This document shows, piece after piece, positions 11,733-30,276 of a DNA stretch of 64,000 nucleotides (its first letter is position 1; each line of letters begins with the position of its first letter). This stretch comes from Halomonas elongata (GTDB taxonomy: Bacteria; Pseudomonadota; Gammaproteobacteria; Pseudomonadales; Halomonadaceae). Location: assembly GCF_029081005.1 (NCBI RefSeq), contig NZ_JAJQTQ010000010.1:1-64000 (forward strand), given 5' to 3'. A program made the position numbers and the translations under genes. The notes under the pieces are model-generated. The model was not told where the DNA came from, did no database searches, and worked only from the letters and a program-made list of their open reading frames with translations.

Positions 11733-12107
11733 ATGCGCGACTTCAATACCCAGCAGTTCACCGAGCAATTCGAATCCCTGTTCTTCGCCCCGGCACGTGC
11801 TTATGCGTCGCTGTCCGTGGATTTCACCGAGAAGATGCTGCGCGCTCAGCTGGACGCCGGCCAGGCCTACACCGAGACGGGTATCACCCAACTCCGTTCC
11901 CTGCTCGACATCAAGGATGCCGAGGGCCTGCGCTCCTACATGGAAGACCAGCAGAAGGTCGCCAAGGAACTGACCGAGCGCTTCAAGGGTGATGCAGAGA
12001 AAGTCGTCTCCCTGCAGCAGGACTTCGTCCAGCAGAGTCAGAAGCTGACCGACGCCAACGTCAAGCAAGCTTCCGAGAACGTCGAAAAGGCCACCCGCAA
12101 GGCCTGA
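11733..12107 (+). CDS. phaP: Phasin family protein
   Basis: A 124-aa all-helical protein of the short phasin family, which coats polyhydroxyalkanoate granules. It shows the early block QFTEQFESLFFAPARAYASL, then long amphipathic helices rich in Gln, Lys and Glu and free of Cys and Pro-rich stretches. The start was chosen at MRDFNTQQF because AGGAGG precedes it closely; upstream in-frame codons run through the promoter. A strong terminator follows. PHA synthase genes are not in this window. Confidence 0.9.
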   Translation: MRDFNTQQFTEQFESLFFAPARAYASLSVDFTEKMLRAQLDAGQAYTETGITQLRSLLDIKDAEGLRSYMEDQQKVAKELTERFKGDAEKVVSLQQDFVQQSQKLTDANVKQASENVEKATRKA

Positions 12108-12132
12108 TCACCCGCTCTGAAGGACACTTCGA

Positions 12133-12161
12133 GGGCCACCGCTACTGGCGGTGGCCCTTTT
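12133..12161 (+). terminator. Rho-independent terminator after phaP
   Basis: A 10-bp perfect stem GGGCCACCGC/GCGGTGGCCC (12133-12142 with 12148-12157) with a 5-base loop is followed by TTTT. It begins 25 bp after the phasin stop codon. Confidence 0.9.
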
Positions 12162-12197
12162 GCGTTAAGCTCTCCCCGCACACAGGGCCAATGCCAA

Positions 12198-12467
12198 GGA
12201 AGCACTGAACAAATAGACGAGCGGAGCAAAGGCTAGGCCCGTTCCTGACGGGCCATCGCATTTCCCACTTCCTTGTGGGTCATGCAAGGCGCCCGGAGCG
12301 CAAGAACCGGAGCCTATGCGGTATAGGTGAGGATTCTGAGCACCGTGAACAAATTCGCCAGGAGCGAATTTGAACCGTCTTTTTTTAGACGGGCCCGTAG
12401 GGTAGTCGCCAAGGATGGCGACTATAAACCAGCAATTTGCCCGCATAGGCATTTGTGCAGTGTTTCC
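12198..12467. mobile_element. 270-bp hairpin-rich MITE-like element
   Basis: The ends GGAAGCACTGAACAAAT (12198-12214) and ATTTGTGCAGTGTTTCC (12451-12467) are inverted repeats matching at 15 of 17 positions. Inside are five perfect hairpins: GGCCCGT/ACGGGCC (12236-12254), CCCAC/GTGGG (12264-12279), AAATTCGC/GCGAATTT (12351-12371), CCGTCT/AGACGG (12375-12392) and TAGTCGCC/GGCGACTA (12403-12424). A long-range pair GCCTATGCGG (12312) with CCGCATAGGC (12441) also occurs. There is no clear target duplication and no open reading frame of note. It fills most of the gap between phaP and the lipoprotein gene. Confidence 0.65.
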
Positions 12468-12483
12468 CCTAACGGGAGACGCT

Positions 12484-13023
12484 ATGCGACATTTCCTCCT
12501 GCCCCTTCTGCTGGGCATCGTTCTCGTGGGCTGTCAGGCCCTTCCGCCATCGAGTGGCACGCAACGCGACGACTCGGTCGACATCACCGATATCGGCGAC
12601 GAGCCTGACCGTGATGCCGGGCGCGTGACTCGTCAGGTCGACTTTCCCGAAGATGAGTATGCCGCCCTCGAAACGTCCGGCAACGCCGCCCTCAGTGGCC
12701 GCCTGACCCTCGACACCGCCTCCGGCACCGTGGTCGGCGCCGGCGAAACCATCTCCGTGGCTCCGGTCACCACCTACTCCGCCGAGGCAGCCGAGCAGGC
12801 TCTGGCCGGCCGCGCAGTGGAACGGGCGGATCCTCGCGCCCGCGCCTACACCCACACCACGCGCACCGACGGCGATGGCTACTTCATGCTGCGCGGCCTG
12901 CCCGCCGGCAACTTCTATGTGTCGGGCAGCCTGGTCGACCCTGCAAGCGGCCAGCGTCGAGTCGTCATTCACGAGGTTGACCTGGGTAACGGACAGCACC
13001 GCGAGATACGGCTGAAACGATAA
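12484..13023 (+). CDS. Putative lipoprotein with a carboxypeptidase-regulatory-like domain
   Basis: A 179-aa predicted outer-membrane or periplasmic lipoprotein. The signal MRHFLLPLLLGIVLVGC ends in a lipobox (LVGC) with Cys at residue 17. A negatively charged linker follows, then a beta-rich domain with GYFMLRGLPAGNFYVSGSL, the pattern of carboxypeptidase-regulatory-like folds. GGGAG precedes the start. Function is unknown. The gene begins only 17 bp after the MITE-like element, whose right end may therefore carry or disturb its promoter. Confidence 0.75.
   Translation: MRHFLLPLLLGIVLVGCQALPPSSGTQRDDSVDITDIGDEPDRDAGRVTRQVDFPEDEYAALETSGNAALSGRLTLDTASGTVVGAGETISVAPVTTYSAEAAEQALAGRAVERADPRARAYTHTTRTDGDGYFMLRGLPAGNFYVSGSLVDPASGQRRVVIHEVDLGNGQHREIRLKR

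Positions 13024-28560: not shown

Positions 28561-30276
<1,716 letters not shown>

Follow-up and report, generated by a model that had tools for sequence, protein, structure and literature searches.

A mobile element with IS5-type ends and a conserved, modular fold in Halomonas elongata

Introduction

Bacterial MITEs, which are non-autonomous transposons, are usually treated as transposon leftovers. The element described here lies in a 64,000-nucleotide stretch of Halomonas elongata DNA (contig NZ_JAJQTQ010000010.1; hereafter the window), and its nearest known kinds are the repeats ERIC, BOX, and MRSC-65-2, BOX being compared by modular plan only. ERIC, the enterobacterial repetitive intergenic consensus of about 127 bp, is a multi-copy repeat with one long stem-loop (PMC2267715). 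BOX of Streptococcus pneumoniae is described as having a middle module that can be absent or repeated with little disturbance to the rest of the fold (PMC3049150). MRSC-65-2 is presented as a single long stem with strong covariation, widespread, with dozens of copies per genome, and sometimes near a transposase (PMC11109978).

Comparison with these systems reveals both likenesses and differences. The E. coli ERIC copies examined are intergenic, with a median of 6 places per genome; by eye, two of them (L155 and L156) show the GGAG-stem-TGA center of our type I elements, and an AGCGAG...CGCAG pair stands at the base in two E. coli copies. ERIC was rejected as the family of the element, as none of our three covariance models matched it significantly (R1, 4.2 bits, E 1.1; R2, 9.2 bits, E 0.12; R3, 8.3 bits, E 0.17). 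A deep common origin of the element and ERIC is still conceivable. The likeness to BOX is one of plan only and consists of a modular repeat with terminal repeats and target duplications (PMC3049150). BOX carries boxA, boxB, and boxC in series, whereas the Halomonas element is a single long hairpin that takes up several kinds of self-folding module at recurring points, and its core can be traced across a phylum. With MRSC-65-2 the element shares a single long covarying stem and many copies per genome, both found in our tests. MRSC-65-2 was likewise rejected, as its conserved UYCCGG repeat is absent: two sites on either strand occur in 0 of the 50 copies of the window genome and 0 of 36 diverse cores, and at least one site occurs on the minus strand in 10 own and 3 diverse sequences and on the plus strand in none and 1, respectively.

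The repeat families Ppu-4 and Ppu-9 of Pseudomonas putida and Bor-1 of Bordetella might be further members (PMC2267715). From IS5-family MITEs the element has its ends, its 4-bp duplications such as TTAG, CTTG, and CTAA, and an IS5-family partner; it differs from them in a conserved folded interior and plug-in modules. Rfam 15 provided no family: neither of its two matches in the window falls on the element, 18 related loci gave none, and the element region reached E 0.04 at best, below gathering. An Rfam match to the 5' ureB small RNA at 29830-30115 of the window (124 bits, E 2.9e-32) presumably reflects the urease coding region itself. A literature search, superficial for most entries, turned up no published description in which we recognized the element.

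We consider the element to be, with fair probability, a non-autonomous IS5-family transposon (MITE) whose fold has been selected on one strand, most likely as RNA. What we file as new is a MITE that is structured, takes up plug-in domains, and changes its ends. Its interior structure is kept by compensatory change across a phylum, and as its ends vary while the structure stays and domains are added at recurring points, selection of selfish DNA through an RNA fold becomes testable. Among the loci tested here, the three covariance models find repeats that Rfam misses at its gathering score.

The copy in the window

The element occupies positions 12198..12467 of the window on the plus strand, defined here as the better-folding strand, and its 270 bp comprise a type I center with modules A and D. 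A left terminal inverted repeat, GGAAGCACTGAACAAAT (12198..12214, plus strand), and a right one that reads GGAAACACTGCACAAAT inward (12451..12467, minus strand) bound it; each is 17 nt long, and they are complementary at 15 of 17 positions (88%), as stated in a preliminary description of this DNA. The predicted fold of the plus strand has an energy of -127.9 kcal/mol, whereas 200 shuffles average -86.8 (z -8.36) and none of them folds as well; all five local hairpins noted in that description form in the predicted structure. Two of them (12236-12254 and 12264-12279) make up the 51-nt module A (12232..12282, plus), which is inserted after core position 34. The other three (12350-12372, 12375-12392, and 12403-12424) belong to module D (12350..12426, plus), near core position 100-103, which measures 77 nt here, owing to an extra T, versus 73 nt in most copies; its ends can be shifted by a few bases.

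The type I central hairpin region, GAACC-GGAG...TGA-GGATTC (12304..12336, plus), forms a hairpin if folded alone; the minimum-energy fold of the whole copy pairs it elsewhere, with 2 of the 33 central-hairpin positions paired within that hairpin. The one feature of the preliminary description that does not hold up is a 10-bp long-range pair between 12312-12321 and 12441-12450. It is present as sequence, but the predicted fold leaves it unused, and CCGCATAGGC, one of its halves, is found in 2 of the 50 own copies, making the pair private to the window copy. What stands is a 270-bp element with matching ends and dense hairpins, and the suggestion that it is composite gains a precise sense, that of a core with insert modules.

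Copies and target sites

A blast search with the element gave 53 matches in the 4.18-Mb window genome, many of them partial and mosaic. The end sequence, at up to 2 mismatches, occurs at 69 sites in this genome against 1 for the reversed pattern, and pairing of ends defines 50 end-bounded elements of 142 to 332 bp. This set of own copies is a lower bound, model R1 indicating further places in the same genome. The number of copies implies that the element is mobile, in line with the expectation, set out in advance, that a mobile element would not be single copy. Exact 4-bp target duplications flank 26 of the 50, whereas 1000 shuffles gave a mean of 2.7 and never more than 9, and 3 further copies have exact 5-bp duplications; TTAG, CTTG, CTAA, and CTCA are frequent among the duplicated sites. 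The remaining 24 own copies without an exact 4-bp duplication include the window copy, whose site is eroded (CCAA / CTAA).

By a home-made gene finder, one own copy of 50 lies wholly within a predicted frame, and the rest lie between frames or overlap a frame edge; in 12, converging frame ends come within 2 bp of the element's right end. Orientation relative to the upstream and downstream genes, as called by this gene finder, shows no clear bias (15 +/+, 15 -/+, 13 -/-, and 6 +/-).

Several observations concern the elements as insertions. Two elements, L083 and L197 (152 and 155 bp), have similar ends and a different interior, so that ends of this kind enclose more than one cargo; L083 belongs to the 50 on the strength of its ends, despite its other interior. 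Mini-elements of 46-79 bp (L191-L195) keep both ends with a much shortened interior. At L196 (G066:C1:1162302-1164285), two end-bounded elements flank about 1.65 kb, in the manner of a composite transposon. In G279, a 5.4-Mb genome of the same order, the copies L337, L338, and L340 sit within a terminator-like hairpin, whose arms and T-run still match on either side of them. A general preference for terminators as insertion sites was considered and rejected: such insertion is seen at L337 and L340 and by eye at L338, and the excess over 55 copies is weak (P 0.05-0.08). Carriage by plasmids or phages was also dismissed, one Halomonas core giving no match in either collection by blastn at E 1e-5; another family member gave one partial match to a Nitrosomonas plasmid. 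One element from the genome of another family had no match in E. coli.

A core with plug-in modules

The own copies range from a core of 142/143 bp to larger forms of about 193, 208, 216, 267-283, and 332 bp. In the larger forms, self-folding inserts are added to the core, of which A measures 51 nt, B about 66, C 16, and D 73. The insert survey covered 141 distinct end-bounded elements, most of them from Halomonas and some from related genera; 4 were dropped as weakly aligned, and of the 137 aligned to the core, 90 lack an insert and 47 have one. As part of these sequences was found with the window element as query, the numbers are counts and not frequencies. Inserts of at least 10 nt fall after core positions 26-36 (21, all 51 nt), 55-56 (8, of 66-68 nt), 87-92 (16, all 16 nt), 97-107 (30, most of 71-76 nt), and 118-120 (3).

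In the consensus fold, modules A and C enter in unpaired columns, module D at a helix end or, in some copies, one base inside the helix, and module B just inside the central helix, among its first pairs. The four main insertion points are at, or 1-2 bases from, the ends of core helices, so that most core pairing remains possible. Two internal loops rich in purines, one CGAG/GCAG and the other GGAG or GAGA/TGA or CGA, interrupt the conserved hairpin of about 109 nt, whose central hairpin exists in two alternative types, I and II. The 5-nt tip loop of type II (L065, L084, L041, and others) takes 17 forms in 33 copies. A role for this loop as a guide or target match was rejected, its own flanks being matched in 3 of 33 copies versus 2.2 when shuffled.

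Covariation and spread over the phylum

Compensatory changes in the stems, which the preliminary description had named as a test for a functional RNA, are present and strong. In alignment A1 (23 Halomonas cores), two-sided changes occur in 11 of 41 predicted pairs, a number reached in 0 of 500 shuffles, and 98.0% of cells are paired versus 94.6% when shuffled and at most 50.2% with partners slid; further pair types, one of the five measures, does not exceed the shuffles (366 of 500). A1 takes in 23, and A2 15, of the 50 own copies. In A5, a trimmed alignment of 18 sequences, 23 of 27 pairs change on both sides. In A6, with 36 diverse cores at a mean column identity of 66%, all 18 predicted pairs do so (0 of 500 shuffles), with 89.7% of cells paired as opposed to 65.0% after shuffling (0 of 500) and at most 48.9% after sliding, and with further pair types matched in 1 of 500 shuffles. 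The structures were predicted from the same alignments as were tested, which gives them an advantage over the slid controls. Three odd or partial sequences, L143, L149, and L151, do not enter A4, A5, or A6, and a fourth, L154, does not enter A5 or A6; L046, L069, L084, and L140 are in A5 and absent from A6, which also omits L161, L177, L185, and L186 and the short L166, L169, L174, and L176. L341, a duplicate of L139, was dropped. Compensatory change of this strength indicates that the structure has been kept.

Model R1, built on the core, finds matches in 75 of 90 genomes of the genus at E 1e-4 and, with the threshold at E 1e-3, in 23 of 293 from the order. Its distant matches differ in their end sequences, and many of these ends are still able to pair. 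Model R2, with the ends left out, matches 98 of 369 genomes of the class (78 of 272 genera), and model R3 matches 67 of 398 in the phylum, including 24 that lie outside the class. The samples overlap, the E-values of all three models are rough, and copies per genome are lower bounds. The part that recurs across class and phylum is the inner 109-nt core. Pairing extends beyond it: in 44 R2/R3 elements, the 16 flanking positions on each side, which lie outside the model, pair in 74% versus 42% when shuffled, and in 29 of the 44 flanking pairing is at least 75%, with left arms that differ mutually by 58%.

RNA or DNA

Folded as RNA, the plus strand does better than the minus strand in 50 of 50 own copies and in 33 of 41 diverse ones; after dinucleotide-shuffle correction it is the better strand in 49 of 50 and 36 of 41, respectively (p 2e-7 for the diverse set). 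RNAalifold energies for plus versus minus in three alignments are -47.0 vs -27.3, -69.7 vs -57.2, and -15.4 vs -9.4. When G-U pairs are disallowed, the strands become nearly equal, and the strand signal is therefore an asymmetry of G-U over A-C. In the outer arms of own copies G-U exceeds A-C by 80 to 8, in copies that share ancestry, and in the arms of 36 diverse copies by 19 to 9, which is suggestive only; helices chosen without G-U give ratios of 7:2, 10:7, and 5:3.

This asymmetry points to RNA, and single-stranded DNA that tolerates G-T would fit it too. An alternative that we hold to be less likely is that the fold matters as DNA: transposition or replication would use a hairpin, either cruciform or in a single strand, or the arms would correct each other by hairpin-templated repair, which yields paired changes with no selection on RNA. 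It gains from the disappearance of the strand signal when G-U is barred, from pairing that extends to the transposon ends themselves, and from the lack of a promoter-like site or clear orientation bias. Less easily reconciled with it are strand-specific folding beyond composition in 36 of 41 diverse copies, an RNAalifold preference for plus in all three alignments, and the conservation, by eye, of internal loops that are not self-complementary, although G-T tolerance in single-stranded DNA could mimic the asymmetry.

The preliminary description had offered a structured RNA as one reading of the element. The structure is indeed kept, but a consensus scan for a sigma-70-like promoter across 12050-12560 called none and copies show no clear orientation bias; on account of these two results, we infer rather than observe an RNA function. 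If the element is a MITE whose fold is selected on one strand, a transposase would act in trans on its ends, and modules may have spread by recombination among copies. Selection would then fall on the folded strand, most likely as RNA read through in mRNA leaders or 3' ends, where the closed hairpin may keep the insertion compact and harmless or may be recognized by an RNase or RNA-binding protein. A broader proposal, which we hold to be unlikely, is that of a phylum-wide mobile structured RNA, in which one covarying core is combined with different IS5-like ends in different lineages and with plug-in hairpin domains, and the transcript aids spread. Such a transcript might recruit a transposase or host factor, or mask insertions inside mRNAs.

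An IS5-family partner

A search of 14 genomes for PF01609 gave matches in 8 and none in the other 6; among these 14, matching ends on both sides of such a gene occur in G071 and G360 only. In G071, a complete genome of the same genus, two ends stand 1226 bp apart around a gene for a 332-aa protein, an IS5-family transposase by its match to NF033581 (303 bits), with PF01609 and PF05598 also matching. The left end of this element has 2 and the right 3 mismatches of 17 to the MITE end. G360, from a different family, has two PF01609 elements with inverted ends about 1.2 kb apart and 3-4 mismatches of 17 to the local MITE ends. G441 and G552 have single ends only, and G342, G404, G407, and G512 have no convincing matching ends.

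The window genome yielded no full IS5-type element with such ends. A PF01609 partner there was considered and rejected, as the candidates are only two IS fragments, at contig ends, whose own ends differ. Two contigs of this genome (L104 and L105) start with the tail of a DDE transposase gene that is nearly identical in both and probably belongs to a different IS collapsed in assembly.

The partner raises the question of whether the element is an ordinary MITE, derived by internal deletion of an IS, with folding a by-product of long inverted repeats. Ends common to an IS5-family element, the multi-copy state, and the single copy of 50 wholly inside a predicted frame would all suit such an origin. 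We judge it improbable, as the interior does not resemble a transposase gene after deletion and by eye, past the ends, is like neither end of the G071 IS, all 18 core pairs change two-sidedly at 66% mean column identity, and the same core occurs with different ends in many genera. The structure is unusual for a MITE, as the preliminary description had remarked, but the element is a MITE nonetheless.

The insertion site and its neighbors

Upstream of the element lies a gene at 11733..12107 (plus), whose product is putatively phasin-like, and downstream lies a gene for a 179-aa lipoprotein (12484..13023, plus). The lipoprotein gene is matched in 87 of 90 genomes of the genus. Its best 30 matches, one being the window itself, supplied 29 relatives' loci for comparison; the element is present at the site in 0 of the 29, and the phasin gene is retained upstream in 25. 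R1 matches in L228 and L237 fall downstream of the lipoprotein gene and not at the site. A relative has gggccaatgCTAAagaaag where the window has gggccaatgCCAA-[element]-C-CTAA, from which it follows that the element inserted into CTAA. The left remnant of the target is CCAA (12194..12197), CTAA in the empty site of near relatives, and the right copy is CTAA (12469..12472), preceded by one additional C at 12468. As judged from these loci, the element entered its CTAA site, with the phasin gene on one side and the lipoprotein gene on the other, after this lineage had split from its relatives.

Shared terminal inverted repeats, target duplications of about 4 bp, multiple copies, and a length of 142-332 bp, which leaves no room for a 332-aa transposase, are the features of an IS5-family MITE. 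Ends, target duplications, empty site, and IS5 partner together identify the element as an IS5-type MITE, and at the level of sequence our data show it to be mobile, structured, and modular. That it is instead a host regulatory RNA, a small RNA or lipoprotein leader repeated by chance, is very improbable: its plus orientation between a conserved upstream stretch and a start codon would agree with this, but all 29 relatives' loci examined lack the element there, and other copies adjoin genes in both orientations.

A terminator-like hairpin (12141-12155) separates the phasin-like gene from the element, and near relatives conserve a stretch upstream of the site, ttgcgttaagct, which by eye is taken for a promoter. 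Just 3' of the element, GGGAG at 12474-12478 resembles a ribosome site. The placement of the element just before a lipoprotein start is confirmed, with the ATG at 12484 following after 16 bases and opening a protein with a lipobox-like LVGC. The element would make up most of the lipoprotein leader in the window, the transcript itself being a prediction. The lipoprotein frame also stays open back into the element (12415-12483), with an ATG at 12415, and the element could thereby supply an alternative start for the lipoprotein.
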